A DNA stretch of 64,000 nucleotides from assembly GCF_009754915.1 (NCBI RefSeq), contig NZ_WPIK01000003.1, positions 186,001 to 250,000 on the forward strand. Reading direction: 5' to 3'. Below, in pieces: positions 2,359 through 50,773 of this stretch. Numbering within the stretch: the first letter of the stretch is position 1; every line of letters starts with the position of its first letter. Position numbers and translations under genes: made by a program. A model generated the notes under the pieces. The model ran no database searches, had not been told where the DNA came from, and saw nothing but the letters and a program-made list of their open reading frames with translations. Source of the DNA: Mucilaginibacter arboris. Its GTDB lineage: Bacteria; Bacteroidota; Bacteroidia; Sphingobacteriales; Sphingobacteriaceae.

Positions 2359-5070
2359 TCAAAATACCTGTTTAAGCTGAATGGCATTTAAAATAGCCTC
2401 TCCTTTTAAAGGCTTAAAATTAACGGTAATACCTGCACTATTTTTTGCAGAAACCCTAAAAGTTGTGGTATAAGCTGTTTGTGGCACTAAGTAATTTTGA
2501 GTGCTTAATGATGGAATAACTGTGGTGCCATTAATTAAAACATCAAACGCTCTTTGTTTTGCTTCTGCGGTTTGTGCAGCATTGCCCAGGTTATAGACCA
2601 ATGCCGGAGAAGTTGCTTTGCCTTCCAGTTCTGCAAAGCCAAGGGTAAGCTCATACTCGCCATCGGGCACATCAAATTTAAAAGCCTGAATGCCTGTTCG
2701 CTGGGTTTGGTAGATTGCATCCATATCAGTGCCGTATATATCTTTATCAGAGCCAAAACTTTGACGGGACTGGGCTGGCATCGTAAACACTTTACCGCCA
2801 ATATATCCCCAGCTGCCTTTGTGGTAGGGTTGCTCCGGCATCCAAACCTGGGCTAATTTTTCGTCAACAAAAAAACGCCTGTCGCCCAAACTGATATTGA
2901 GATCGGTATATTGTAAGGGTTTATTTTTAAATAAGGCGGGTATAAGTTTAAAATTTATTTGTGCTATGTCTTCACAAACTACACCATTAACAGTTGATGC
3001 AGCTTTAATCGTGTTATTCCCATTTGTAAACGGAACCTGAAATACAGCAACGCCTGAATTTGTTGCCTGGTTCTGCAGCATCTTACCGTTGTGCCATAGT
3101 TGTACCTGTACGCCATTGGTAAAAATATATACTTGTTGTGTACAGGTATTGTTCAAATCTGCAATTCCGGTCCTTAGTTTCCAACCTGTAGCACCTATTT
3201 TTAGAAACGGTTTCTTGAGTAAATTAGCCTGATAAAAGAAGTAGGCATCCTTAGGGATACGTTCACTGGTAGTTATTCCTTTTGTGTTGATATGCGGCGT
3301 GGCATCTTTGCGCTGCTCTGAATTAAAGTCGACCAGGTTCCATATAGCAGCACCGGCTACAAAAGGTTTTTGTAATATGGTTTTCAGGTAATATTGATGG
3401 TAATAGGTTTGATACTCAATGCTTTTATCAAACCGTTCGGGCTGAGTGCTGTGGATCCTGGTATCTGCATCTGCACCAAATTCGGTAACAATCATTGGTT
3501 TTTGAGGAAACTCCTGATGATATTTATCTAAAAAACCTGCAAAATCTTCAATCCGTGGAGAATACCAGCCCGGGTATAAATTCCATCCAACAATTTGAGG
3601 CACAGCGGTTAAGCCTACACGGTTATACAAATTATAATCACCATGACAGGGAATCATCGTATATCGCCCGCTATCCTCCTGGTGGGTAAGAGCTTCGATT
3701 TGTTTAGCCAGGGCAGTAATGCTGGCAAAATACCGGTTTTGCTCGTCCGAATTTTTTTCATACTTCGGCCTTAGCAGTACCTCATTCATATAGGCCCAAA
3801 TAATAATGCTGGGATGGTTAAAGTTCTGCCGGACCATTTCTATCTGCATTTGCTTGCAGTTGTTGTAAAAGGAGTCTGATTCGGTTATATAATTTACGAT
3901 AGGGATTTCTACCGAAGCCAGCAAGCCCAGCCTGTCGCAAGCTTCTAGAATTGCCGGGTCCTGAGGATAATGCGCAATACGGACAAAATTAGCGCCCATG
4001 TTTTTAAGCAGCTCCATATCCCGCTGATGAATGGCATCGGGCAAGGCATTGGCCATATCTTTAAAATCCTGATGGCGGCTGGCACCAATCAGCTTCAAGG
4101 GCTTTCCGTTCAAATAAAAACCTTTGGCCGCATCAAAGCTGTACCAGCGCAGCCCAAGCGGGTTGCTTACCTCATCCAGTAAAGCACCGGTGGAACGATC
4201 AATGATTTTAGAAACTATGCGATATAAATAAGGATCATTCGGCGACCATAAATGCGGCATCGTGATTTGCTGCTGCTGCATAAATGCCGTGTTGCCCGAA
4301 GCATTAGCCTTTACTGGGCTTTGTACTTTTTTGATCAGTTTACCTTCGGCATCACTAATCTCTGTCATTATCATCAGGTTGCGGTTCGATGTAAACCTGT
4401 TGGTAATCTTTCCGCTGATGCTGATCGTTGCAGTATTGGCATTAACTAAAGGAGTTTTAATTTGTATCCCGGAAGAAGCATAATTATCCATATCAAAATG
4501 AATATTATCGGCTGTTATCAGGTAAACGTCGCGGTATATACCACCAAAAAATGTAAAATCAGCATCAAGCGGAGGTATGCTTTCGTTGTAACTATTGTCC
4601 AGTTTAACCAGTACCTCGTTTGCTGTTAAACTATCATTGCCTGCTTTAAGGTAGGGCTGGATTAAAAAGCTGAACGCAGTATAGCCACCTACATGTTTTC
4701 CGGCGAGCTGGCCATTTACATAAACTTCTGCTACCTGATTTGCCCCTTCAAAGTAAAGGTAAGTTTGTTTATTTTTAACGGATGCCGGCAGGTATAAAGT
4801 TTTTTTATACCAGCTAATCCCGCGGTAATAGCCAGGTTCATCATCGGTTACATCCTCTGTATTCCAGCTATGCGGAATAGACACCGACTGCCACCGTACA
4901 TCTGCTGGTTGCTTAGCGGGAAGGCCTTTAATATCGCCCTTATGAAAGCTCCAGTTACTATTAATGCTTTGACGGATCCTGGTTTGAGAGTGGGCAGAAG
5001 CCACAAAAAAACATACATATAGCAGCGGTAAAAAAAACTTAATCATCATTAAAGCTGGTTTAAATTTCAT
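2359..5070 (-). CDS. GH2 beta-galactosidase-like enzyme with C-terminal malectin domain
   Basis: A secreted glycoside hydrolase of 903 residues. After a signal peptide (FFLPLLYVCFFVASAHS) come a GH2 sugar-binding domain (about 30-215), an Ig-like domain (about 220-330) and a TIM barrel (about 330-620). The barrel has acid/base Glu430 in WAYMNEV and nucleophile Glu530 in VTEFG. About residues 730-900 resemble a malectin/CBM57 module (GYIGGKVFTMP, FDVPDGEYELTLGFAE). GH2 enzymes remove beta-galactose, beta-glucuronate or related sugars; galactosidase is the default guess. The first seven codons (MKFKPAL) lie in the outer arm of a dispersed repeat, so ATG 5049 or 5046 (MMIKFF or MIKFF) may be the real start. 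It is transcribed toward the IS3 remnant. Confidence 0.9.
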   Translation of the reverse strand: MKFKPALMMIKFFLPLLYVCFFVASAHSQTRIRQSINSNWSFHKGDIKGLPAKQPADVRWQSVSIPHSWNTEDVTDDEPGYYRGISWYKKTLYLPASVKNKQTYLYFEGANQVAEVYVNGQLAGKHVGGYTAFSFLIQPYLKAGNDSLTANEVLVKLDNSYNESIPPLDADFTFFGGIYRDVYLITADNIHFDMDNYASSGIQIKTPLVNANTATISISGKITNRFTSNRNLMIMTEISDAEGKLIKKVQSPVKANASGNTAFMQQQQITMPHLWSPNDPYLYRIVSKIIDRSTGALLDEVSNPLGLRWYSFDAAKGFYLNGKPLKLIGASRHQDFKDMANALPDAIHQRDMELLKNMGANFVRIAHYPQDPAILEACDRLGLLASVEIPIVNYITESDSFYNNCKQMQIEMVRQNFNHPSIIIWAYMNEVLLRPKYEKNSDEQNRYFASITALAKQIEALTHQEDSGRYTMIPCHGDYNLYNRVGLTAVPQIVGWNLYPGWYSPRIEDFAGFLDKYHQEFPQKPMIVTEFGADADTRIHSTQPERFDKSIEYQTYYHQYYLKTILQKPFVAGAAIWNLVDFNSEQRKDATPHINTKGITTSERIPKDAYFFYQANLLKKPFLKIGATGWKLRTGIADLNNTCTQQVYIFTNGVQVQLWHNGKMLQNQATNSGVAVFQVPFTNGNNTIKAASTVNGVVCEDIAQINFKLIPALFKNKPLQYTDLNISLGDRRFFVDEKLAQVWMPEQPYHKGSWGYIGGKVFTMPAQSRQSFGSDKDIYGTDMDAIYQTQRTGIQAFKFDVPDGEYELTLGFAELEGKATSPALVYNLGNAAQTAEAKQRAFDVLINGTTVIPSLSTQNYLVPQTAYTTTFRVSAKNSAGITVNFKPLKGEAILNAIQLKQVF

Positions 5071-5085
5071 CGAAAAAAATTTATG

Positions 5086-5143
5086 ATGCTTCTTTTATCA
5101 GCATAAAATTTGTGTCTGTATTTTATGCTGATAAAAGAAGCAT
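5086..5143. repeat. Perfect hairpin repeat unit upstream of GH2
   Basis: Two perfectly complementary 24-bp arms (5086-5109 and 5120-5143) separated by 10 bp. The left arm begins ATGCTTCTTTTATCAGCATA. The variable core (TCAGCA) is identical in both arms. This is the cleanest unit in the window, 16 bp from the annotated GH2 start. Confidence 0.95.
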
Positions 5144-5345
5144 AGCAAATAAATGTTATAGTTGGTTACAGGTTGCAATGTAGCCGGATTACACCTTTCA
5201 AACACCATGTGGATATCTCATAAAAGCGTGGCATATGTCTTAAAAAGGTTAATAAGCCAGGCTTTATAAGAGAACCGGCACAAAACGTAGTGTTGTGGTT
5301 AAATTTATTGCTGGTGCTTTCTTACGCACCTGCGCAGCATAATAA

Positions 5346-5469: not shown

Positions 5470-5576
5470 GATTATTTTAAAATCAGAATACAGTGATTAA
5501 ATAAAAACAGGGTTCAACTTAACTTTATATCAATGAAGTTGTTTAAACTTTTTTTCTGGCCTTCTTTTTTGGGCCG

Positions 5577-5763
5577 ATGCTTCTTTTATCAGCTAAAAAT
5601 GCTGGTCATTAAATTTTGATTTTTTAGGCCGGTGCTTCTTTTATCACCTAAAAAATGTTAACTATTGCTTTTTTGATCCACTAAAGACCTATAAGGTTTT
5701 CAAAACCTTATAGGTCTTTAGTGATTAAATGTAAACACCAATTTTACCCGGTAAAAGAAGCAT
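5577..5763. repeat. Three-arm repeat cluster
   Basis: Left arms start at 5577 (ATGCTTCTTTTATCAGC) and 5632 (GTGCTTCTTTTATCACC); one right arm ends at 5763 (ACCCGGTAAAAGAAGCAT). The flank at about 5535-5576 resembles the complement of the flank at 28283-28315, showing that similarity extends beyond the arm. A 45-bp palindrome lies between the second and third arms. Confidence 0.85.
5679..5723. repeat. 45-bp near-perfect palindrome
   Basis: Arms of 22 bp (5679-5700 and 5702-5723) around a single C, with inner sequence ACCTATAAGG TTTT/AAAA CCTTATAGGT. It is unrelated to the ATGCTTCTTTTA arm. A terminator, a second REP-like family or a protein site are all possible. Confidence 0.85.
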
Positions 5764-5833
5764 GGGCACCAAACCTGGGCCTGCCGAAGAACCAGATTTA
5801 AATTGGTACCAAAAAGTTTAAACAACCTCAATA

Positions 5834-8110: not shown

Positions 8111-8154
8111 ATTACTATTTAAGAGCATGTTTAATTTTGTTCAGTTTATTTCCG

Positions 8155-8249
8155 ATGCTTCTTTTATCACCTAAAAAAACAGAAAGTTGCAATACTTCTT
8201 TTAGCAGCAGGTATTAAAAAAACAAGATTTACAGGCATAAAAGAAGCAT
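8155..8249. repeat. Paired repeat unit upstream of the GH95-like gene
   Basis: Left arm ATGCTTCTTTTATCACC at 8155, an extra degenerate left arm ATACTTCTTTTAGCAGC at 8192, and a right arm ending GGCATAAAAGAAGCAT at 8249. Flanks form outer inverted repeats (GTTTAATTT and TTTTAAAC). Confidence 0.85.
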
Positions 8250-8380
8250 CCTGATTTCCTTTGATATACATTTTAAACAGCCTTTAAATTATTGTATCGG
8301 ACCATTGTATATTCCGATGTTAGGTTTACATCATTTATTTCTCGGAAAATTAAATTTTAAACAATTTCATAAGCACTCGC

Positions 8381-10786: not shown

Positions 10787-10977
10787 AGTGTTTGCGCTGT
10801 GCTTAGTAAAAACTATCGCATTCTGTTCAGCGCAAACCCTGTCAAACTTATATGAGTTGTTAGACTTTTAAGTTCAAGGTCCAAATCAAATTATTAGAGA
10901 TAGTATGAACCAGTTTGGGCAAATACAATAAGCTTTAGGTTGATAAATATCAACCGTTTTAAAATTGTGTTAGGTTG

Positions 10978-11060
10978 ATGCTTCTTTTATCACCTAAAAA
11001 TCTTTAAACTTTTATCGAAGCTGTTTTTAAAAATGAATTTTTAGGTGATAAAAGAAGTAT
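10978..11060. repeat. Paired repeat unit
   Basis: Left arm ATGCTTCTTTTATCACC at 10978 and right arm AGGTGATAAAAGAAGTAT ending at 11060. The cores match perfectly (TCACC/GGTGA); the right tip is GTAT. Confidence 0.88.
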
Positions 11061-11093
11061 TGCCGTTTTTTGAAGTATGGATTTAAACCGTTT

Positions 11094-11891: not shown

Positions 11892-11936
11892 AAAATAAGT
11901 AAATAAGACCTGTTGAAATGTTGTTTCAAATTTTTA

Positions 11937-12024
11937 ATGCTTCTTTTATCGCCTAAAAACTTGATAGTTGATGGTCAATAGTTCAACAATACAAACACCA
12001 ATTTTTGGGTGCTAAAAGAAGCAT
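11937..12024. repeat. Paired repeat unit between SusD and the SGNH esterase
   Basis: Left arm ATGCTTCTTTTATCGCC at 11937, right arm GGGTGCTAAAAGAAGCAT ending 12024. The cores differ (TCGCC against GCACC). The interior includes the low-complexity stretch TTGATAGTTGATGGTCAATA. Confidence 0.87.
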
Positions 12025-12072
12025 GCATGGTATTTCAATTACAGGTTTAAAATTTCGAAAAAATATTTGTTA

Positions 12073-13707
12073 TTAATAACCTGGGTTTTGCGGCAATACG
12101 GCACTTATATTAGCATCGATCACACTTTGAGGTATGGGCAATAGCTGGTCCCGTGGTTGTATTAAATTACCTGAAATTACATTATGTAATTTGGTGCGGG
12201 TCAGCCAGGTTTTTGTACGCAACAAGGTATAACGCCTGTCTTCTTCAGAAAATAATTCACGTGAACGCTCATCCAGAATAAAATCGAGTGTAATTTGTGA
12301 TGCGGTAATTAATGGTGCATGAGCCCGGGTACGCAACGCATTTATTGCAGTTGCAGCCCCTGCTAAATCGCCTAAACCTAAATCAGCTTCAGCCAAAAAC
12401 AAATAATCTTCACCGGCACGTATCAATATCTGATCATTGTAGGAGGATGAGTTATTTACATCCAACGGACTCGTGTAATCCCATTTACGGGTGCTTGGCC
12501 AGTTCGGGTTGGATAATTTTTCATTTGAAGTACGGTCAACCGGTACAACTTGTCCTAATGTATATCCCTTAGGTATGCCTGCAGGGTTATTGATGGTATA
12601 GGAAAACCTCCACGCATAATCAGATCCACGGTCATCGGTAGGATCATAAATTGACAATGCCCACTTAGTTGGCCCAATACGGCCAATTCCCCTTCCGCCA
12701 AAATCGGCACTGGGTAAAAATGGACTGGCTGACTTGCCATCGGTTCCTTTAACTGTTAAGGAATAATAACGGTTAACCCAATAACGGCGCATAATATTGT
12801 TTCCTTCGCCTCCGGTTACATTCAGTTCATTTTGCAATACCCATAAAGCTTCGGTATTGCCCTGACTACGGTCAGAGTTACCGTCTAAAAACATATCGGT
12901 AAAAGCAGTACCGGGGTTTTTCGCGTTTGCGCCATACCTATTATTTATTAAAGCGTAAGCAGTGTTAGTGGTTACCCTTGTCGCATAATCTTTTGCTTTA
13001 GTGAAGTTACCTTGTGTAAGATAAAGTTCTGCCAAGTAATGTTGTGCCGTTCCTTTAATTACCTTTCCGTCATTTGTATTAGTAACAGGCAAATTTGCTT
13101 CGGCAAATAACCAGTCGGCTTCCATAGCGGCCTGCACATCTGCTACTTTCGCCCTGCTAAAATCGGTTTTAAAGTTTGCACCTGTAGTTTCCGTTAATGT
13201 TAAAGGTACATCGCCAAATAAAAAGGTTAAATGCCTGTAACACCATGCCCTGATTAATCTTGCTTCAGCCAGTGTCTGGTTTTTTTGATCGCCTGTCATG
13301 GTTGTATTAAGTGGTACACGGCCAATAATGGTGTTTGCAGCATTAATAGTTTGATAAAAATATGCCCATAGCTGGCTATATTGTATAAATGCGGCATTGT
13401 TTGCAGCACCCCAGTTATTGTAAACCGTGCCCGGCGAACCCGGGTAGTTGGAATAGCTGTTGTCAACCCCTTCAACAGTAACTTCCGACGTCATATCGTT
13501 AGATGGATCAGCGGTTGTGATACCAGCCCTGTAACGCCTAACCTGGTAATAAAGCCCGTTTATGGCATTTTGAAAACCATTATAATCTACAAACAAATTA
13601 TCAGCAGTTAATATGGCTGGCGGATTTTCATCCAGCGCATTTTTTTTGCATGATGTAACGCAAGCTATCAGCCCCGCACAAACAAGTATTTTATTAAAAA
13701 ATTTCAT
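12073..13707 (-). CDS. susD: SusD/RagB-type glycan-binding lipoprotein
   Basis: The outer-membrane surface lipoprotein that pairs with SusC to capture oligosaccharides. About 544 residues from ATG 13707, chosen because the longer frame from 13743 would overlap the SusC gene while 13707 gives a lipoprotein signal (MKFFNKILVCAGLIACVTSC). Typical SusD features follow: NGLYYQVRR near the N terminus, EARLIRAWCYRHLTFLFGDVPLTL in the TPR region, RAGEDYLFLAEADLGLGDLAGA, and the end ERSRELFSEEDRRYTLLRTKTWL followed by LLPIPQSVID. It begins 22 bp after the SusC stop codon, so the two are co-transcribed. Which glycan it binds cannot be read from the sequence. Confidence 0.95.
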   Translation of the reverse strand: MKFFNKILVCAGLIACVTSCKKNALDENPPAILTADNLFVDYNGFQNAINGLYYQVRRYRAGITTADPSNDMTSEVTVEGVDNSYSNYPGSPGTVYNNWGAANNAAFIQYSQLWAYFYQTINAANTIIGRVPLNTTMTGDQKNQTLAEARLIRAWCYRHLTFLFGDVPLTLTETTGANFKTDFSRAKVADVQAAMEADWLFAEANLPVTNTNDGKVIKGTAQHYLAELYLTQGNFTKAKDYATRVTTNTAYALINNRYGANAKNPGTAFTDMFLDGNSDRSQGNTEALWVLQNELNVTGGEGNNIMRRYWVNRYYSLTVKGTDGKSASPFLPSADFGGRGIGRIGPTKWALSIYDPTDDRGSDYAWRFSYTINNPAGIPKGYTLGQVVPVDRTSNEKLSNPNWPSTRKWDYTSPLDVNNSSSYNDQILIRAGEDYLFLAEADLGLGDLAGAATAINALRTRAHAPLITASQITLDFILDERSRELFSEEDRRYTLLRTKTWLTRTKLHNVISGNLIQPRDQLLPIPQSVIDANISAVLPQNPGY

Positions 13708-13729
13708 TTTTATGAGGTTTAATTTACGT

Positions 13730-16714
13730 TTATAAACTAACATTTAATCCTGCCACAAATTCCTTTATTAAAATAGGTATGGAAGTGTTGCTTGCATCCA
13801 ATTCAGGATCGAAACCCTTCCAAGGGGTAATTGTAAATAGGTTGCGCCCTTCAACAAACAGCTTTATCTTAGATATCTTCAAACGTTCCAAAAGTTTCGG
13901 CGAAAAACTGTAAGACAGCAAGAGGTCTTTTACACGTAAATAACTGGCGTTTTGAAATATGGCAACACCATAAATATTAGGCTGATAAATAGGGGAAGCC
14001 TGTAACTGTGCGTTAGCATAATAGTCATTTGTAGGGTTAGTAGGCGTCCAGTAATTTTTAGCATAAGTATTTTTTTCAACTGCCGTATTTACATTGTCAG
14101 AAAGAGTGGTATTTTGTTTAATTACCCCGGCTACACCTTGCACAAATGCATACAAAGAAATATTTTTGTAGGCAAATGTATTTGCTAATCCATAAGTAAA
14201 CAGCGGCTGTAAACTCCCTATAATTGTCCTGTCGGGCCCGGTTATTTTACCATCGCCATTTAGATCGGCTACTTTAGCGTAACCCGCTTGTGTATTTGGT
14301 TGCGGTGATTTTGTCAGATCATCGGTCAACTGCCATACCCCTAAATATTTGTAGCCAAAATTTACTCTTATAGGGTGGCCTATAAACCAGTTGTTAGCGG
14401 TGTCACTTTTGCCTGTGCCATACAAGTCAACAATCTTATTACGGTTTAAAGAGAAAGTGCCGGTTGATGTCCAGGTAAAGTCTTTGCTTTTAATATTGGT
14501 ACTGGTTATACCAATATCAATACCCTTATTGGCCGTTTTACCAATATTTTGAATGATGTTGCTAATGCCGTTTGTGCTAGGAATAGAGCGGTTTAACAAT
14601 AAATCATGGGTTTTTGCCGAATAAATATCAACAGAGCCCTGGATGCGCCCTTTTAAAATGCCAAAATCTAAGCCCCCGTTTAAAGTATTTGTTGTTTCCC
14701 AGTGTAAATCAGGATTAGCCAATGTTGAAGGTATATAACCAGGTGCGGTGGCCGAACCGTTTAAATAAGTAGCATTGCCTAAAGATGCAAAAGTTGAATA
14801 AGCCGCCACCGCCTGGTTACCATTGCTGCCATAGGACAATCGTAGTTTTAAATTATCGATCTGGTCTATGTTTTTCATAAATTGCTCATTACTAATATTC
14901 CAGCCCAGAGCTACCGAAGGGAATATGCCATACTTTTTATCGGCACCAAAATCAGACGCACCGTCACGGCGTACGGTAGCTGTTAAAAGGTAACGGCTAT
15001 CGTAAGAATAGTTAAACCGCCCCATTTGCGATAACAGGCTTGTTTTGGCGTATAACGGCGCTCCTGAAGCAGGTACATCTACAGACGTAAGTAAAGCTAT
15101 ACGTGCCTGGTAATAAGTTAGCACATCATTGGGGAACCCCGTTGCAGTTAAGGTGTGATTAGTAACAATATCGTTTTCATAGCTATATAACGCAGTAAAA
15201 CCGAGGGTGTGCTTGCCAAATTCACGATTGTAATTCAGAATGTTTTCTATCGTGTAACTATTGCTTACATTACTTGCGTCGCTAATCCGGCCCTGCGCTT
15301 CCAAACCTGTTTTGGTATTACGGCCATAATAGCTGTTTTGGTCCCGGGACGAATGTGTAACACCCGTGTTAATACGATAGGTTAATCCTTTTAGCGGTAA
15401 TTTCACTTCAAGAAAATTGGTTGAATAAATTTGATATTCCAGATCTGAATTATTAACTAAGGTGGGTGCAAGCGGGTTGGCATAATAAACTGTTTCCGGC
15501 CACGGATAGATGGTCGGGGTTACGCCATCAGTCTGGAAAGGTGTAGTTAACGGGTTAAAAGTAAAAGCACTGTAGTCGCCGCTTAAAGACGCTGGCATTC
15601 CGCTGCGGTTATCGAAGCCTAGCCGGGTAGATGTGCCGTAGGTTAACCATTTAGTTATATTTACATTCAAATTTGCTGTGGTAGATAACCTCTTGAAATG
15701 ATCGTTAACATCTACACCATTAACATCAAGATAGTTAAGGGAAACAAAATATTTAGAATTGTCTGTACCACCACGTACCGAAACTGCATTTTGCTGGCGT
15801 GTGCCATTTTTTACTGCCAGGTCAACATAATTAGCAAAATTTCCGGAATTGTAGATTGCGGTTTCAGATGGGGTAATAGCTCCTGGGTTTCTGGCCATTT
15901 TATAGGCGTAAAACTGTTGTGGGGTTAACACTGCAGGTATTTTGGTAAATTTGTCAACGCCAAAAGATCCGTCATAGGCAACAACAGGTTTTCCTGATGT
16001 TCCTGTTTTGGTAGTAACCAATATTACCCCATTGGCGCCCCGTGAACCATATATGGCTGCTGCAGAAGCGTCTTTTAATATTTCAATGCTCCCGATATCA
16101 GATGGGTTGATGTCGGTTAGGTTGCCATTATAAGGTATCCCGTCTAAAATAACTAAGGGGTTATTACTTGCAGTGATAGATCGTTGTCCGCGTATTTGTA
16201 TGCTTGCTGTTCCTTCTGCGCCACCGCCGCTTTGCGTTACCGTTAATCCCGGTACAGAGCCTTCAATCGCTTGCGCCAGATTATTATTTGGCAAACTCTC
16301 TAAACGCTTCGGGTCAACACTTACCACCGAACCGGTAATATCTTTTCGCTTTTGCGTGCCGTAACCCACTACTACAACTTCACTTAAGTTTTTGGCATCA
16401 TCAAAAAGCGTGATATTCAGGATTCCATTTGCCGGTACCGCTTTTTCCAGGGATAAAAAACCGATATAACTAAAGTCTAATACACTTCTTTGCGGTACGT
16501 TTAAAGTAAATTTACCTGCTGCATCTGTCTGCGTTCCCAGGTTTGTCCCCTTAACTTTTACGCTTACACCAATTAAAGTCAAGCCTTGCTTATCTTTAAC
16601 AATGCCGGTAACTTTTATATTCTGCGTTTGTGCTAAAGCAATTTCATAAAAAAGCGGGCTTAAAAAAAGCACCGATAGGAATAACCGAAGCCATTTTTGA
16701 TAAAAATTTTTCAT
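13730..16714 (-). CDS. susC: SusC/RagA-type TonB-dependent outer-membrane transporter
   Basis: 994 residues, the usual SusC length. Order: signal peptide to about residue 29 (FYEIALAQ), a carboxypeptidase-regulatory-like domain (about 33-112, IKVTGIVKDKQGLTLIGVSV), the SusC signature SEVVVVGYGTQKRKDITGSV, a plug domain (about 130-235, with IQIRGQRSIT and GSRGANGVILVTTK), and a 22-strand barrel ending in GLNVSL. With SusD it imports oligosaccharides across the outer membrane using TonB energy. No FecR/ECF pair is adjacent, and there is no N-terminal signalling (STN) domain, so control is more likely by the hybrid two-component regulator at 20903-25091. Confidence 0.96.
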   Translation of the reverse strand: MKNFYQKWLRLFLSVLFLSPLFYEIALAQTQNIKVTGIVKDKQGLTLIGVSVKVKGTNLGTQTDAAGKFTLNVPQRSVLDFSYIGFLSLEKAVPANGILNITLFDDAKNLSEVVVVGYGTQKRKDITGSVVSVDPKRLESLPNNNLAQAIEGSVPGLTVTQSGGGAEGTASIQIRGQRSITASNNPLVILDGIPYNGNLTDINPSDIGSIEILKDASAAAIYGSRGANGVILVTTKTGTSGKPVVAYDGSFGVDKFTKIPAVLTPQQFYAYKMARNPGAITPSETAIYNSGNFANYVDLAVKNGTRQQNAVSVRGGTDNSKYFVSLNYLDVNGVDVNDHFKRLSTTANLNVNITKWLTYGTSTRLGFDNRSGMPASLSGDYSAFTFNPLTTPFQTDGVTPTIYPWPETVYYANPLAPTLVNNSDLEYQIYSTNFLEVKLPLKGLTYRINTGVTHSSRDQNSYYGRNTKTGLEAQGRISDASNVSNSYTIENILNYNREFGKHTLGFTALYSYENDIVTNHTLTATGFPNDVLTYYQARIALLTSVDVPASGAPLYAKTSLLSQMGRFNYSYDSRYLLTATVRRDGASDFGADKKYGIFPSVALGWNISNEQFMKNIDQIDNLKLRLSYGSNGNQAVAAYSTFASLGNATYLNGSATAPGYIPSTLANPDLHWETTNTLNGGLDFGILKGRIQGSVDIYSAKTHDLLLNRSIPSTNGISNIIQNIGKTANKGIDIGITSTNIKSKDFTWTSTGTFSLNRNKIVDLYGTGKSDTANNWFIGHPIRVNFGYKYLGVWQLTDDLTKSPQPNTQAGYAKVADLNGDGKITGPDRTIIGSLQPLFTYGLANTFAYKNISLYAFVQGVAGVIKQNTTLSDNVNTAVEKNTYAKNYWTPTNPTNDYYANAQLQASPIYQPNIYGVAIFQNASYLRVKDLLLSYSFSPKLLERLKISKIKLFVEGRNLFTITPWKGFDPELDASNTSIPILIKEFVAGLNVSL

Positions 16715-16772
16715 AAATCAAATTAAAAAGAGGTTATATAAATTGGTTGTAATTACAAATCAGGCCTTGTAA

Positions 16773-16880
16773 TCAGATCATCAGGTTAAAAATGTATAAT
16801 AATATCGAAATTAAAATCAGGCTTATCAGCAGCAGTACACTGCCTTTATAGTTCAGCTTATCTTTTAATATTGATCTCAT
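16773..16880 (-). CDS. Candidate 35-residue membrane peptide upstream of SusC
   Basis: ATG at 16880 down to TGA at 16773-16775. The peptide starts MRSILKDKLNYKGS, followed by a single hydrophobic helix rich in L and I, ending FNLMI. It lies on the SusC strand with its stop 58 bp upstream of the SusC start, and an AAAGA-like purine stretch precedes its ATG. A positively charged N terminus plus one transmembrane helix is a plausible small inner-membrane protein. I do not recognise the family. It could be a chance frame in AT-rich DNA, though its composition is not random-looking. Confidence 0.45.
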   Translation of the reverse strand: MRSILKDKLNYKGSVLLLISLILISILLYIFNLMI

Positions 16881-17210
16881 TCTTTAGCTTTTCGCTTCTC
16901 CGGCCTTTTAAAGGTAGAACTACTGTCCATTAAAACTACAGGTCATTTCAGGCATTTTTACCTGAAAAATGCGGCATTACCATTTTTAAGAAATGCGTAT
17001 TTATCGTTCATAAAATTATAAACCAATCTCTTTCATTATTTTTTTAAATGCTGATTAGGCAGGTATTTCTGAACCATTAGCAGGGTATGGGCCATCAGCT
17101 ATTTGAATACCTTGGAAACTGTAAACTTAAAATTAACAACAACCATTAAATGATCAGGCAGGGTATATTTTGATGCCAGCCACTGTAGTGCTTGTATATG
17201 GAAAATGCTC
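16881..17210. other. Upstream control region between the SusC and F5/8C hydrolase genes
   Basis: No gene is seen. It should hold the SusC promoter and any binding site for the hybrid two-component regulator. The only structure I noticed is an inverted repeat TTTCAGG (16945-16951) / CCTGAAA (16960-16966), a candidate regulator site. No clear TAnnTTTG box was found. Confidence 0.4.
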
Positions 17211-17299
17211 ATGCTTCTTTTACCGGGTAAAATTTCAGGTCATGCCTGTCTTTTTTAAATGATAACACCACCATCATTTTTATAGGGTAAAAGAAGCAT
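17211..17299. repeat. Paired repeat unit upstream of the F5/8C hydrolase
   Basis: Left arm ATGCTTCTTTTACCGGGTAA at 17211, right arm TATAGGGTAAAAGAAGCAT ending 17299, 55 bp from the next start codon. It uses the CCGGG core variant, which makes TTTTACCGGGTAAAA a small palindrome of its own. Confidence 0.87.
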
Positions 17300-17353
17300 T
17301 GACTGAGTGGGAAAGCATTTTAATCAACAGCAATAATATAATATATTCAAATT

Positions 17354-20300
17354 ATGAGATACTCTTTTGCACTTTTTTTGATAGCAGTTATTGGTTTTTT
17401 AACACCTGCTGTAGGGCAGCAAATAAACCTTGCCTTACATAAACCGGTAACCGCAACATCAGAAGATAAACAATACCCGGCGAAGAATGTGGTTGATGGC
17501 ATTATCAACCGAAAATCTAAATGGATGACCAGCAGCGGTAAAGCGCCGCATATACTGGAAATAGACCTGCAAAAATATTGCAATATCAATGAAGTTGATG
17601 TTTATACAGGTATCCCAGAAGCAGAACGTACGCCTGCAGAAACTACACAGGCTGCAGGTTTCTGGTCGGCAAAAAATTTCAGGATGCAGTATTGGGACGA
17701 TTCCAACTGGACTGATTTTCCCAACGCAGAAGTGTTAGAGAACAGGCTGGTCCATGTAAAGTTTACATTCAGCCCGGTAATTACTACGTACAAGGTGAGG
17801 TTTGTTTGTGATGATGGCGAACCCATCAATATAATGGAAATAGAAGTATTAGGTACCGAAGCTCCGAATATGCCCCTTCCGCCGCAAATTACTTCGAATA
17901 TCAAAGTTGTTCCAAATATGGCTGATAAAGATGCCTCGATAACAGTTAATCCGCAGGTAGTAGGCAAATCATTAAAGTTTGTAGGTTACAACCAGGGTTA
18001 TTTTTTTCCGGGCAGCAATGTATCGGGCTGGCTCGAATATTCCAATATTAATTCTGTACGCGTTTGGGCTACCATGAATGCCTTTGTACCCGAAAATTCG
18101 GTAAACATTAATAATAACCTGAAGGATGTTCAGGAATTTGACCGGTTGAAAAACGAGCTCAGGCAAAGCCCGGAAAAAAACCGGTTTATACAATGGAACA
18201 AGCTTTATCCCTTGTACACTAAAATGGATTCATCGTCCACCAATGCCATGGTGTTTAATTATACCCTGGCAGAGTTAAAGCGGCTGCATATACAGGCCTT
18301 GCTACAGATGAACACCAATGATTTTAATGATACCTGGGGCAATAAATGGAAACAATGGCAGCGTTTTTATGCACTGGCCTACTATGCGGCAAAAACAGGC
18401 GACGTTACGATGTTTGCCATGCAGAACGAGCCCAACCATGTGGCTTCGGGGCCGATGAAATTAAACCAGTGGATAGGAGGGATGCAGATCGTCTCAGACG
18501 CGGTGCATTGTGCCGTGCAGGATGTGAACAAAAAATACGGCAAAAACTTACAGGCCAAATTTGTCGGCCCTGTTACTGCCGGCCAGAATACAGACTGGTG
18601 GGCAGGTGTTATCAAAGCTATCCGTACCGATTATCATGGCAAGCAGATTGACCACGACCTGATCGATATTTTTTCTACCCACTCTTATAACTCGCCTGCT
18701 GCAGGTTATGTAACACGTGTAAATAATATCCGCAAGGTTATTACCGATAATCATCCTTTAGGAAATCCGCTGCCTATTGTTTTTACCGAAATTGGCCGTT
18801 GGATGAATGCTTACCTGATCGATAAAGAAGAAACCATGGATTCGCCATCCTTGTTTACCGAATGGGCAGGCATTTATGCCAACAACATGAACAATGGCGC
18901 TTATGGCATGTGGGCTTTTAAGTTTGCCAACACCGCCAGCGAAACTTATCCCAGGGGAATAAAATCTGGCCATCATTTAACCTGGCAAGGCAGGCGGATT
19001 GTGGAAGATGCTTATACCGATCTGGCATTGGGGAAACATGTTAAAGCAAGTTCTGAATCGGCACAATGGCCTGCTAAAAACATTACCGATGGCAATAAGT
19101 CAGATCTTTCCGCCTGGCATTCAGATTCCACGTCAGCAGAAAAATGGCTGGAGATCGACCTGGGTAAAACACAAAAGCTGGGAAGCGCCGTAATGTACAC
19201 GGGTTCGGCAGCAGGCGTATTTACCGGGCCAGACCGGGTTAAAAAATTCAAATTACAATACTGGGCAAATAATACCTGGAAAGATATTCCCGGTACCGAG
19301 GAGAAAAACTGCAAATATGTGCAGGTTTTCCAGCAGTTTAAGCAGGCCGTTACTACCGATAAGATCAGATGGGTAAGTACTGATGCCGGGGTTGTAAAAG
19401 TAAGGGAGATCAAAGTTTTTGCAGCGGATGACGGGCCGTCGTCAAAACCAGATTTTAATATATCCGGCATACAGCGTACCGGCGAAGTGGTAAGGTTATT
19501 TGCAAAAGGGTTTAAAAACGAATTGCCGCTGCTTCAAACACAATCAACCATTACGGATAGCGGCCTGGATACTTATACTTCTTATGACCAGGAAAAGCAG
19601 ACCTATTATATGTGGCTGGTACAGCGCGGCCTGTTTGATTATCATTTAAATATTAACCTGGCCGGCCTGCCAATTGAGGCCGGAACACCAGTTATAGCCG
19701 AAACTGTTGGACCCCGCAGTTATGGCGAAGTAACAGGAATTTATCCTGTACCTAATGATAAAAACATCCGCCTCAACCTGGGGCAGCAAAGCGTAACATT
19801 GCTGACGATAACCGCACAAGCATCTAATAAACAAATTATACCGCCTGTAGCAGACGCTTTTGTAGCAGGTGGAAAAATGGCCAAAAAAAACTTTGGTACA
19901 GTCCAAACATTGCAAGTGGCGCTGAATGCTTCAAAACCTGAAAACAACCGCGTAAGTTATCTGGATTTTAAAATACCGGCGGCAAAAATTTCAGGTGCGA
20001 AAAGGATCATATTAAGGGTGAACGGTAAAGTAGATCAGGGTGTAGCTCCATTCCGCCTGCATGTGTATGGTATTCCGGGAAAAGTTTGGGAGCAGCAAAA
20101 ATTAAACTGGACAAATGCACCGCTGCTCGACCCGAAAGAAGCATTGATCACGATGTTGGGCAACAGGCTTTTGTAGCAGGCGAACTGGCTTTTGATAATC
20201 AAAACAAATATCATAGCCTTGATGTAACCGATATGCTTAAAAAACATGTTAAGGATAATATAACATTTGTTTTGGTTCGGGAGACACGCGAATTAGGTGA

Positions 20301-20534: not shown

Positions 20535-20572
20535 TGGTGAAGCTGTTTGATTTTATTCCGGGAAAAATGCTG

Positions 20573-20669
20573 ATGCTTCTTTTAGCACTATAAAATTGGT
20601 GTTTACCAATTTCTGTAAATACAAAAGGCCATTGCGCTTACTGATTTTTTTAGGGGATAAAAGAAGCAT
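20573..20669. repeat. Paired repeat unit
   Basis: Left arm ATGCTTCTTTTAGCACTATA at 20573; right arm TTAGGGGATAAAAGAAGCAT ending 20669. Right flank CAAAGTTTAAAACGC resembles the outer arm of other units. Confidence 0.86.
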
Positions 20670-20739
20670 CGCCAATAATTGGAACAAAGTTTAAAACGCT
20701 TTTTAAGGAAAAAGAATTGGGCCGTTTTTTCTTTGTACG

Positions 20740-25091: not shown

Positions 25092-25175
25092 AATAACAGG
25101 TTTATAAAGGAAACAGTTATACTAAGATAGCCAAATTTTAGAAGCTGTTTAAATTTATCTCCCCAAAAAATTGTA

Positions 25176-25269
25176 ATGCTTCTTTTATCATCTAAAAATT
25201 ATCGTTTGTGTCTATATCTGTGAAAAAGATTAGAAAGCCTCCCTGGTTTTTGTATGGTAAAAGAAGTAT
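25176..25269. repeat. Paired repeat unit upstream of the HTCS
   Basis: Left arm ATGCTTCTTTTATCATCTAA at 25176; right arm GTATGGTAAAAGAAGTAT ending 25269. Left outer flank GAAGCTGTTTAAATTT at 25141-25156 matches the outer arm seen at 50271. Confidence 0.86.
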
Positions 25270-25372
25270 TAAGATTGCTTCTTTAAATAACATAAGAACT
25301 TAAATATTATTAGAACTTTATCAGAACTAATGTACATTACTCCCTGTAAATCAGGACGGCGTAAGGTTGCTG

Positions 25373-26584: not shown

Positions 26585-26621
26585 GTCAGTGCTTTTTTAA
26601 ATTTTATCCGATCTGTTTTAC

Positions 26622-26712
26622 ATACTTCTTTTATCACCTAAAAAACCATATCCTAACTTTGCATTTTTGGGTTACTGCAGCAGTGCCAATTTTTAAGGTG
26701 CTAAAAGAAGCA
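26622..26712. repeat. Paired repeat unit upstream of GH88
   Basis: Left arm ATACTTCTTTTATCACC at 26622, right arm AAGGTGCTAAAAGAAGCAC ending 26712. Both tips differ by one base from the consensus. The left flank TTTAAATTTTATCCGATCTG aligns with the flank at 50279-50300. Confidence 0.84.
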
Positions 26713-26773
26713 CCGCGATTTTGAAAACCTGTGGTTCGAACAGCTTTTAAACTTTTTTTTGCTTTGTGTTGAT

Positions 26774-28006: not shown

Positions 28007-28120
28007 AAAAGATGGATGTTAAATTTAGTAATAGCTGTAACAGCTAATGGTACTTTTTGCATTCATTATTAAATTGTACCCGCTTTAAAAGCGGTTTAAA
28101 TTCTGTTCCAATTATTGCCG

Positions 28121-28144
28121 ATGCTTCTTTTATCACCTAAAAAT
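28121..28144. repeat. Single repeat arm upstream of the DUF2264 gene
   Basis: ATGCTTCTTTTATCACCTAA at 28121, preceded by the outer-arm-like AGCGGTTTAAATTCTGTTCC at 28090-28109. Confidence 0.85.
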
Positions 28145-28190
28145 CATTAAGGCCATTTGCTTTTGATAGGTGAAGCAAGAGGTTTTGCCC

Positions 28191-28282
28191 ATGCTTCTTT
28201 TACCGGGTAAAAATTGGTGTTTTGCATCCATTTAAATCAATCAAAAAACAAAGCCAGCATTTTTGTGTGCTAAAAGAAGCAT
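28191..28282. repeat. Paired repeat unit
   Basis: Left arm ATGCTTCTTTTACCGGGTAA at 28191; right arm GTGTGCTAAAAGAAGCAT ending 28282. The right flank (28283-28325, AAAAAAGAGGGCCGG then AATTTGAACAACTT) is the complement of the left flank at 5535-5576. Confidence 0.87.
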
Positions 28283-28336
28283 CAGCCTAAAAAAGAGGGC
28301 CGGAAGAAAAATTTGAACAACTTATTTTTTATGTTT

Positions 28337-28453: not shown

Positions 28454-28757
28454 TTATATAATTTAAGTTTGGTTTATTATTGGTTATAGTGGTTAGGAGG
28501 GATATAACTGCACCATGCTAACAAATGTATAATCAATCCGGCCAATTTGTATTGGCTTATCTTTCATAAATACATGACGGATCTTTCACATTCCTTTTGC
28601 TTGCCCGTAGTGATTTATTTATTGTTGAGGAGTATTTAGTGCCTCGAAGTAAATAGGAATGAAACATCCTAAGGGTATATTTGAGTTAAACAAACCTGTT
28701 TTATATTGCCTTCAGGGACTACTTTAGTAAAGAAATGTTTTGTAAAAACCTACCAGG

Positions 28758-28860
28758 ATGCTTCTTTTAGCACTATAAAATTTGCATTTACATCTTGCGC
28801 TGCCGGCCGGATACAAAAAGCAAAGGGCTTTTGAAGATTTTTATGCGGTAAAAGAAGCAT
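28758..28860. repeat. Paired repeat unit upstream of the sialate O-acetylesterase-like gene
   Basis: Left arm ATGCTTCTTTTAGCACTATA at 28758, right arm TATGCGGTAAAAGAAGCAT ending 28860. Right flank AGAAACTTTAAACAGCTT carries the outer arm. Confidence 0.87.
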
Positions 28861-29002
28861 AGGGACATATTTTTTAGAAACTTTAAACAGCTTCCCCATA
28901 GAAATTTGGAATGAATAAAACGAAATGGATTAAACGGACATATTAATTCAGGGCCATGAATTTAAAACGGGAAGCTTTAAACCAATTTATAAAACACGCC
29001 TT

Positions 29003-48357: not shown

Positions 48358-48382
48358 CCGGTCCACCGATCGGATTTTTTTT
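48353..48382. terminator. Bidirectional terminator between the histone-like gene and dapA
   Basis: AAAATCCG (48353-48360) and CGGATTTT (48371-48378) with a 10-nt loop, with T-runs on both strands; the two genes converge here. Confidence 0.75.
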
Positions 48383-49262
48383 ATGAATTTAAGTTTTTCA
48401 GTTCTGCAGCAATCAGGCCGGAAACTTTAGGGCTAACATTAACCAAAGGTAATCTCAGTGTGTTTTCGCATAATCCGGTTAGTTTTAATGCTTCTTTTAC
48501 ACCTGCCGGGTTTCCGTCTATAAACATCAGCTTGGTAAACTCAATTAACTGGTAATGGATAATTCTGGCTGCTTCCCATTTTCCATCCAAACAAAGCCGT
48601 ACCATATCCGAAAAAAGCTGCGGAACAGCATTGCCAATTACAGAAATTACACCAACGGCACCTAAAGCAATCATTGGTAAAGTAACCGGATCATCGCCGG
48701 AGATCAGCATAAAACTTTCCGGTTTGTCCCGCATGATCTGGTTAAACTGGTCAAAATTTCCTGATGCTTCTTTTATGGCAATAATATTTGTACAATCGTG
48801 GGCAAGCCTTACAGTTGTTTCTGCAGAAATATTACTTCCGGTACGGCCTGGAACATTGTATAAAATAACAGGCAGTTCAGATTGGGCAGCAATGGTTTTA
48901 TAATGCTGATAAATGCCTTCCTGTGTTGGTTTATTGTAATATGGACTAACCGAAAGAATGGCATCAAAGCCTTGTTTATCCAGGTTTTTTATGTTTTCTA
49001 CAACTGCCGCTGTGTAATTTCCGCCAACACCTGCAACTAACGGAACTCGTCCTGCAACAGTTTGTGCCGTAAACTTCCAGATTTCTTTCTTTTCTAAAGA
49101 AGTTAAAGTGGCACTTTCACCAGTTGTTCCCAAGGAAATCAGGTAATCAATGCCATTGCCAATCAGGTTTTCAATAATATTTTCCAACCCGGAAAAATCA
49201 ACAGAACCATCAGTTTGAAACGGAGTAACAATTGCTACGCCGGTACCATAAAATTTTTTCAT
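48381..49262 (-). CDS. dapA: 4-hydroxy-tetrahydrodipicolinate synthase DapA
   Basis: 293 residues from ATG 49262; an in-frame TTG just before it is less likely. TIM-barrel class I aldolase with the DapA signature GTTGESATL (Thr-Thr-Gly), YNVPGRTGSNI (Tyr and Arg of the triad and entrance) and IIAIKEASGNF with the Schiff-base Lys. It condenses pyruvate with aspartate semialdehyde, the first committed step to diaminopimelate and lysine, matching the DAP-type MurE of this window. It lies alone on the minus strand. Confidence 0.96.
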   Translation of the reverse strand: MKKFYGTGVAIVTPFQTDGSVDFSGLENIIENLIGNGIDYLISLGTTGESATLTSLEKKEIWKFTAQTVAGRVPLVAGVGGNYTAAVVENIKNLDKQGFDAILSVSPYYNKPTQEGIYQHYKTIAAQSELPVILYNVPGRTGSNISAETTVRLAHDCTNIIAIKEASGNFDQFNQIMRDKPESFMLISGDDPVTLPMIALGAVGVISVIGNAVPQLFSDMVRLCLDGKWEAARIIHYQLIEFTKLMFIDGNPAGVKEALKLTGLCENTLRLPLVNVSPKVSGLIAAELKNLNS

Positions 49263-49695
49263 CAATAAAATAAGAAGCCGCTAAGATAAGATTTTGCGTT
49301 TTTACAGGAAGCTAATGTTAAACAATTATTAAGATTTAAGTGACTGATCCATTAAACTTCTAAAAACTTTGATTTGGTGTAATTAAATAGGTGCAATAGT
49401 TTGCTGTAACAGTTTAAGAATGAAAAGATAAACTTTTAATGGCCGGATCCGGATGACACAAATATGTTCGTTTTTTTGTAATACTTACAAGTAAATAAAC
49501 GTGCCTGGATAACTTGCTATTGTACATGGATTTCTAACAGACTTTGTTAATTGGGGCTTATGGCAAAAGTTTGGAATTTGTCTTACTTGACGTGTAAGTA
49601 AAAAGGCCGTTTTATTGACGATAGGTTTTGAATGAGTAAACAAGTAAAGTAGCCTCAAATGTCTGTTCTTGTCCTTACGGAACCTAAGGAAGCTA
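49263..49695. other. Gap between dapA and the GNAT gene
   Basis: 433 bp, both neighbours on the minus strand. It must contain the dapA promoter. I see no gene, no repeat arm and no clear structure. Confidence 0.6.
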
Positions 49696-50187: not shown

Positions 50188-50773
50188 CTTAATATTAGGT
50201 CTCTTTTTTGGACACTCTTCATTCCCGCAGTTATAGCTTCATGATCACTATTTACAATTGTAAATATTATGAGCCTGTTTAAATTTTATTCAATTTATTT
50301 TATATGCTTCTTTTATCAGGCAAAAAACTATAAATTTCTGTATTTCTTGTATCGATGTCATCTCAAAAAACAGAATTTATAGGCATAAAAGAAGCACTGT
50401 AATTTTTTAAGATAATAATTTGAACAGGCTCTATGTAAAGCAATTAAAATTAATTAAAAAAATCGCTGTTGAGTAATATCTAACATCATTTCAATGAATT
50501 TCGTTTTCAAAACAATCTGTCTTTAAGGAAAGGTCACAGTCGCTTAATTTATTCAATAGAATATTCGATTGCTTCCATTTCAAATTTCCCATTGGTCTCA
50601 AAGCTACGAATCAAATTTCCGATTATATATGAGTATTTCCAGTTTAAAACTATTTGAAAAGACGTAATCAGCCACTTTTCCCACTTTGTTCTAACTTGTT
50701 CCAATAAGAACAAGCTGGTTATTTGTATTTTATTCTGTTATGCTTGAGATTTGACGGATTAACCTAAGGGTCA
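50188..50773. other. Gap holding the 161-bp repeat unit and the upstream region of a membrane-protein operon
   Basis: 586 bp with no gene. The repeat unit occupies 50271-50431. At 50695-50714 there is a 7-bp hairpin (CTTGTTC/GAACAAG) without a T-run, possibly a protein site near the promoter of the next gene. Confidence 0.7.
50271..50431. repeat. Complete nested repeat unit, 161 bp
   Basis: Outer inverted repeats of 15 bp, GAGCCTGTTTAAATT (50271-50285) and AATTTGAACAGGCTC (50417-50431), with one mismatch. The inner arms are ATGCTTCTTTTATCAGG (from 50304) and GGCATAAAAGAAGCA (to 50396). This shows the family can have two nested pairs of inverted repeats about 30 bp apart. Confidence 0.88.

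Follow-up and report, generated by a model that had tools for sequence, protein, structure and literature searches.

An element with two pairs of inverted arms

Why does a 161-bp stretch of the Mucilaginibacter arboris genome carry two pairs of inverted arms, one around the other, and what is the word that forms the inner pair? The stretch lies at 50271–50431 of the window, by which we mean the whole 64,000 nucleotides of DNA analysed here, bases 186001–250000 of contig C23 in the organism's own genome (G000; 4.16 Mb, 83 contigs). Two congeners are designated G001 and G002. The original prediction placed outer arms at 50271 and 50417 around the inner arms, and the sequence bears this out. The features, with coordinates in the window, are as follows.

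50271–50431, + strand: full MITE copy, both ends present (161 bp; profile positions 1–161, E 8.4e-36, this copy being one of the 30 used to build the profile)
50271–50285, + strand: left outer arm, the transposon tip GAGCCTGTTTAAATT (from the sequence; compare the IS5-family remnants L105 and L106)
50417–50431, − strand: right outer arm AATTTGAACAGGCTC (from the sequence)
50304–50317, + strand: left inner arm, a copy of the genus-wide motif ATGCTTCTTTTA[TC]C, with the 12-mer TGCTTCTTTTAT at 50305–50316
50385–50396, − strand: right inner arm ATAAAAGAAGCA, a second motif copy facing the first (from the sequence)
50268–50270, no strand: left target duplication, TAT (from the sequence, locus L001)
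50432–50434, no strand: right target duplication, TAT (from the sequence, locus L001)

The outer arms are complementary at 93% and the inner arms fully so. Relative to the tip GAGCCTGTTTAAATTT, the element has no mismatch on the left and two on the right. The 161-nt strand has a folding energy of −45.4 kcal/mol, and because this beats all 200 dinucleotide shuffles (mean −21.6, sd 3.65; none as good), the inverted-arm structure is beyond chance. The element has no coding capacity, with at most 53 codons and no overlapping listed ORF (at least 120 aa). An Rfam scan of the window returned nothing on it, the sole match above gathering score being a tRNA.

Copies of the element in the genome and window

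Positions 50231–50471 of the window, searched against G000, gave 46 further rows at E <= 0.001 and 71–87% identity. Scoring covered 40 of the 1024 first-look candidates, and four or more of the rows are second hits to a copy already counted (other strand or half); the figure of 47, the element itself included, is therefore one of rows and not of copies. Many of the matches extend to both outer tips. When 30 fetched loci were put in one orientation, they aligned over approximately 161 positions with the consensus GAGCCTGTTTAAATTTTATTCAATTTATTTTcTATGCTTCTTTTATCACCTAAAAA...TTTATAGGCATAAAAGAAGCATTATAATTTT...AAATTTAAACAGGCTC, so that similarity does not stop at the inner arms but reaches the outer tips. 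The outer and inner arms therefore belong together in a single, imperfect terminal repeat some 45 bp long. Both arm pairs that had been predicted do exist, but they are not a separate pair nested around another.

The outer 12 bases were also searched alone, with two mismatches allowed, in sampled DNA of the three congeners. This gave 28 non-overlapping inverted pairs 100–220 bp apart, against 13 direct and 11 everted control pairs, which were counted with overlaps and are not rare. At least one core with no more than one mismatch is present in 21 of the 28, and the six coreless pairs are all weak tip matches. The left core was recognised in 20 of the 28 pairs, and in 15 of these 20 it lies 30–32 bp from the start of CTGTTT.

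Twelve further matches to the MITE profile lie in the window.

8123–8281, + strand: near-complete MITE copy (= L015), target duplication TAA, profile E 2.5e-32
20541–20696, − strand: MITE copy, profile E 2.5e-24
28755–28893, − strand: MITE copy, one end incomplete, profile E 7.5e-18
26591–26722, + strand: MITE copy, right end incomplete, profile E 6.1e-15
11908–12046, + strand: degraded MITE copy, profile E 3e-14
25142–25274, − strand: MITE copy, one end missing, profile E 2.5e-13
28091–28175, + strand: MITE copy, left part, profile E 3.3e-13
10975–11091, + strand: MITE copy without left outer end, profile E 4.7e-13
5054–5153, − strand: short MITE-like copy with a long inner palindrome, profile E 3.6e-11
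28186–28283, − strand: short MITE-like copy, profile E 3.6e-10
17208–17301, + strand: short MITE-like copy, inner part only, profile E 2.4e-9; similar stretches occur in G001
320–454, + strand: degraded MITE-like copy, profile E 3.6e-9

Five of the units in the window, at 5051, 8126, 25141, 28092 and 28860, had been predicted to share the outer sequences. All five match the MITE profile; the copy at 8123–8281 is near complete, and the rest lack part of the element or one tip.

MITE copies are dense between the carbohydrate-degradation genes at 2359–30421 (GH2, GH95, GH88, DUF2264 and a SASA esterase), a region that contains one of the window's six intra-ORF cores. A search of window 12000–20200 in G001 and G002 returned repeats only and no syntenic genes. 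MITE density is very high in a 40-kb stretch of G001 (C98:1–40000; L060, L061), with 34 MITE-profile matches, 29 of them near full length, in a count where both strands of a near-palindrome can be included. A related longer unit, which starts GAAGTTGTTTAAACTTTTTTTCTGGCC and carries motif copies, is found at about 5535–5772 of the window and at L031:1145–1410. It contains a near-perfect hairpin, CTAAAGACCTATAAGG...CCTTATAGGTCTTTAG, and is perhaps a second element family.

Insertion footprint and candidate transposase

Transposition should leave its mark at the flanks, and we looked for target duplications and for empty sites in the relatives. Among 39 tip pairs with a nearby core (L014 counted in two registers and a few weak tip matches included), 18 have equal 3-bp flanks. 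The expectation with right flanks shuffled is 7.4, and none of 5000 shuffles gave as many. Matches of 2 bp and 4 bp showed no excess in the same 39 pairs, and 21 of the 39 copies have no equal 3-bp flanks. One clean empty site was found: G000 reads ATTAAA[GGGCCTG...CAGGCCC]AAAG, versus ATTAAAG in G002, between ORFs C1:72862–74505 and C1:74775–75356. This precise case is one of nine intergenic regions aligned between the congeners, the other eight being too diverged or otherwise different; regions with extra sequence in G001 or G002 alone yielded no clean empty site. The 161-bp unit thus inserts with a 3-bp, mostly TAA- or TTA-like duplication. With its terminal repeats, IS5-like tips, length of approximately 161 bp, 3-bp duplications and empty site, it is the MITE-like element with defined ends that the original prediction envisaged.

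The source of the transposase was sought in the same genome. An 855-bp insertion sequence lies at L031:1463–2317, with ORFs that match DUF4096 and DDE_Tnp_1. Its longer ORF scores over the NCBIfam IS5_3 cut-off, and the shorter matches the same model below the cut-off. Its left tip, GAAACTGTTTAAATTTTGTT, agrees with the MITE consensus at 17 of 20 bases and its right tip at 12 of 20, and TTA stands on both sides. No motif core is found inside it. In G000, PF01609 was found at only two places. Because the L031 insertion sequence is single-copy in G000 and was not found in G001 or G002, where MITEs abound, it is no more than a candidate mover. Two near-identical remnants, L105 and L106, start GGCCTGTTTAAATTTTGTT(T/C)AATAATAATTTTATGG, a tip closer to that of the MITE. 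Each keeps a 73-aa ORF with a match to the C terminus of IS5_3 (E 1e-10 and 5e-9), and on the Pfam model DDE_Tnp_1_2 (cut-off 29.2 bits) L105 scores over at 30.9 and L106 under at 26.8. Elsewhere in G000 (C45, L032), a PF01609 transposase fragment with an internal stop adjoins a MITE copy. Given the likeness of the tips and the length of the duplication, the MITE was probably mobilised by an IS5-family transposase.

The element resembles MITEs derived from the IS5 family: it has no room for a gene, measures about 160 bp, has terminal repeats with IS5-like tips and a short target duplication, and its copies are intergenic. It differs in that each terminal repeat contains, as its inner part, a chromosomal word found throughout the genus, and in that its cognate transposase is a putative one. 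REP/BIME elements also form short inverted pairs in many intergenic copies; here, in contrast, solitary copies of the word within genes arose by substitution.

A genus-wide word in the inner arms

The inner 12-mer had been proposed as a second motif of the element. That holds, and the motif is also genus-wide outside MITEs. The word accumulates throughout the genus: G000 contains TGCTTCTTTTAT 1105 times (586 + 519), against 4 + 1 for the reversed word, and the two congeners contain it 1027 and 640 times; the 57 other genomes examined from the family and class have 0–10 copies each. Words of this motif are the top over-represented 10-mers in samples of all three congeners. Exact copies of ATGCTTCTTTTA outnumber all one-mismatch forms taken together, 167 to 98 in 364 kb of G000, 86 to 38 in the sample of G001 and 67 to 49 in that of G002. 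A single scan for the extended motif in viral contigs found none.

A simple ORF caller, set to at least 150 aa, assigns about 84% of the DNA of contig C1 (300 kb) plus the window to ORFs; 75 of the 212 cores in that DNA lie well inside them. In C1, cores occur at 0.27 per kb inside ORFs and at 2.2 per kb outside them; the figure inside ORFs of the window is 0.12 per kb. Copies within and outside ORFs share a context of AT before the core, C at +11 and an A/T run from about +16 to +22. Loci merged at 200 bp are spaced more evenly than random in C1 (CV 0.80 versus 0.99; 0.3% of simulations as low); even spacing was not seen in the window.

The 3-bp duplications and the empty site allow the MITE reading to stand alone, and the element might be an ordinary MITE, its inner arms a mere sub-terminal repeat and the genome-wide word unrelated to its spread. 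We think this unlikely. The inner arms match the extended chromosomal word, A-run included, and the core columns of the MITE alignment are conserved better than the tips, although the latter is suggestive only because the copies were gathered by similarity.

Conversely, a transposon could have spread the word and then decayed around it, leaving every copy as MITE debris. In keeping with this reading, MITE-profile matches, some of them short and resting largely on the core, take in 34 of the window's 45 cores, and in 300 kb of C1 they take in 36 of 167. However, 131 of the 167 C1 cores lie outside such matches, the L031 insertion sequence has no core, and the copies in genes arose without insertion (see below); we regard debris as a very improbable source of the word as a whole.

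A third possibility is that inverted word pairs are transcription terminators or mRNA-stability hairpins and that the word is kept for that purpose. The strong fold of the element would suit such a role, as would the opposite orientation of 18 of 23 neighbour pairs within 150 bp in C1. Yet 122 of 167 C1 copies have no neighbour within 150 bp, copies sit inside genes, and in the folded 161-nt strand the T-run of the MITE falls inside the stem, not after it. This explanation seems to us highly improbable.

Copies within genes arise by substitution

The copies inside genes allow insertion and substitution to be told apart. In gatA, all three congeners read AATGCTTCTTTTA(T/C)CGACCAAAAATTA, and 27 orthologues of other genera have different codons; one of these 27 loci has a one-residue insertion within the 23-codon stretch. 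At the gatA site, 79 named outgroup loci have neither an indel, over 12 codons, nor an exact core. The 1464 kb of these 79 loci contain the core 7 times and the reversed control 6 times. Three sites, out of 57 C1 ORFs with a core, were comparable to the outgroup; their 157 comparisons (106, 47 and 4), which include gatA loci of both sets and in which the same species may occur twice, have no indels and no exact core. Seven further sites, in MetH, PGDH, ThrB and DHDPS, are gapless by eye at the motif residues relative to the best solved homologue. Two cores lie in the DHDPS-family gene of the window, where the motif residues align without gaps to the solved dihydrodipicolinate synthase 2ehh.

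48766–48775, + strand: motif core in the DHDPS-family gene (48381–49265, − strand), present in both congeners, gapless relative to 2ehh
48490–48499, + strand: second core in the same gene, present in both congeners

At the gene sites compared, copies of the word arose by substitution and not by insertion. The same test was used to judge that Haemophilus USSs are not insertions (PMC1626085). As an origin of the tested gene sites, MITE debris is ruled out by substitution without insertion.

Once present, the copies in genes are conserved. G002, at 81.1% nucleotide identity over 75 shared ORFs, has 22 of 28 cores unchanged, versus 13,276 of 87,923 other 10-mers (15.1%); in 46 ORFs common with G001 the figures are 17 of 19 and 9,103 of 56,873 (16.0%). 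Of four-codon stretches encoding the same residues (ASF, KEA, KRS, LLL), 19 of 29 with the core and 2 of 41 without it have the identical nucleotide sequence in G002, and the residues themselves are kept in 20 of 29 and 17 of 41. Counted site by site, the core is kept at 21 of 25 sites in G002 and 15 of 17 in G001, with one more site unalignable. Two of 42 codon alignments have an indel near the site, both in one G001 gene. This conservation could reflect selection, biased conversion through uptake, or both.

A possible uptake sequence

The best explanation, and one we consider probable though well short of certain, is a MITE superimposed on a genus-wide word that resembles an uptake sequence and is carried twice by the MITE. 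The word consists of the core ATGCTTCTTTTA and [TC]C, followed after a few free bases by an A/T run. By analogy with known uptake systems, we infer an uptake bias toward word-bearing DNA. Surface receptors would bind ATGCTTCTTTTA, cells would bind and import DNA with the word better than other DNA, and bound fragments would pass through ComEC and then recombine. Mutations that create or restore the word would spread by this bias, and the word would build up by point substitution wherever tolerated, mostly between genes and also in housekeeping genes. Its accumulation, we propose, is due to repeated biased uptake and recombination. The MITE has two facing word copies just inside its tips; with every insertion the genome would gain uptake sites, and fragments bearing the element would therefore pass from cell to cell more readily than others.

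The strongest competing reading gives the word some other role on the chromosome that would leave the same evolutionary footprint, such as a Chi-like recombination or repair hotspot, a segregation or nucleoid-protein site, or a HIP1-like iterated word, likewise gained by substitution. The distribution data show that the word is favoured, not the reason. Chi- or KOPS-like sites would show strand polarity, and there is none in the 300 kb of C1, where cores number 84 on one strand and 83 on the other. HIP1, the iterated cyanobacterial word, is a palindrome, unlike the word here. Moreover, the A/T run stands at a fixed distance after the core both in and out of ORFs, resembling the conserved segments reported after the Haemophilus USS core (PMC1626085). 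All told, another chromosomal function strikes us as unlikely, and we keep to the uptake-like word as the preferred reading.

ComEC is present in G000. No PilT/PilB/GspE-type (type II/IV secretion) ATPase exceeded the cut-off there, with one partial match at 22.9 versus 24.9 bits; the same family was matched in 14 of 14 control genomes, in 13 over the cut-off. The well-studied uptake systems rely on type IV pili. Uptake need not depend on a pilus motor, since Riemerella, another member of the Bacteroidetes, is reported to require a different set of components for transformation, namely ComEC, DprA, a helix-hairpin-helix protein and outer-membrane proteins (PMC8459023). A fuller scenario is that the uptake word ATGCTTCTTTTA had an independent origin in a genus of Sphingobacteriaceae in which no type IV pilus motor is recognisable, that it was captured twice in the terminal repeats of a MITE, and that the MITE rides on DNA sharing between cells. 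This we offer tentatively, giving it a little less than an even chance.

The USS of Pasteurellaceae and the DUS of Neisseriaceae share several traits with the word here: a short core with hundreds to thousands of copies and few one-mismatch forms, no orientation bias, a higher density in non-coding DNA while still common in genes, and origin by substitution rather than insertion (PMC1939737, PMC1626085). The uptake-enhancing sequences of H. influenzae number 1471, 65% in ORFs and approximately 10% as inverted repeats, with no orientation bias and few one-mismatch forms (PMC1939737). The present word differs in phylum, in sequence, in having no type IV pilus ATPase above the cut-off beside it, and in that some copies are borne by a transposable element; its uptake role here is a putative one, read from sequence. 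If the reading is true, an uptake-like word in Bacteroidota would be an independent replicate of the Pasteurellaceae and Neisseriaceae uptake sequences, and a MITE that bears it would be both a new route of spread for a selfish element and a new source of uptake sites. It would also bear on how uptake words arise and whether a type IV pilus is needed. The Correia elements of Neisseria are likewise MITE-like repeats in a genome with an abundant uptake sequence; their conserved sub-terminal repeat is not known to be the uptake word, unlike in the MITE here. Among the titles and abstract openings that our literature search returned, none described an uptake sequence in Bacteroidota or this word, nor an uptake or transformation experiment for this genus.

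Another word, ATGCTGTTTTTA[TC]C, is over-represented as well: the three congeners have 214, 194 and 212 copies of it, against at most 3 in 38 other genomes; an example is at G000:C1:18267–18280. DUS dialects have been reported (PMC3630211), and we offer "dialect" of the main word only as a label for this second one. In the o26/o27 intergenic region, G000 has ATACTGTTTTTACC, a related form, where G001 has ATGCTTCTTTTATC, as if the one were a dialect of the other.
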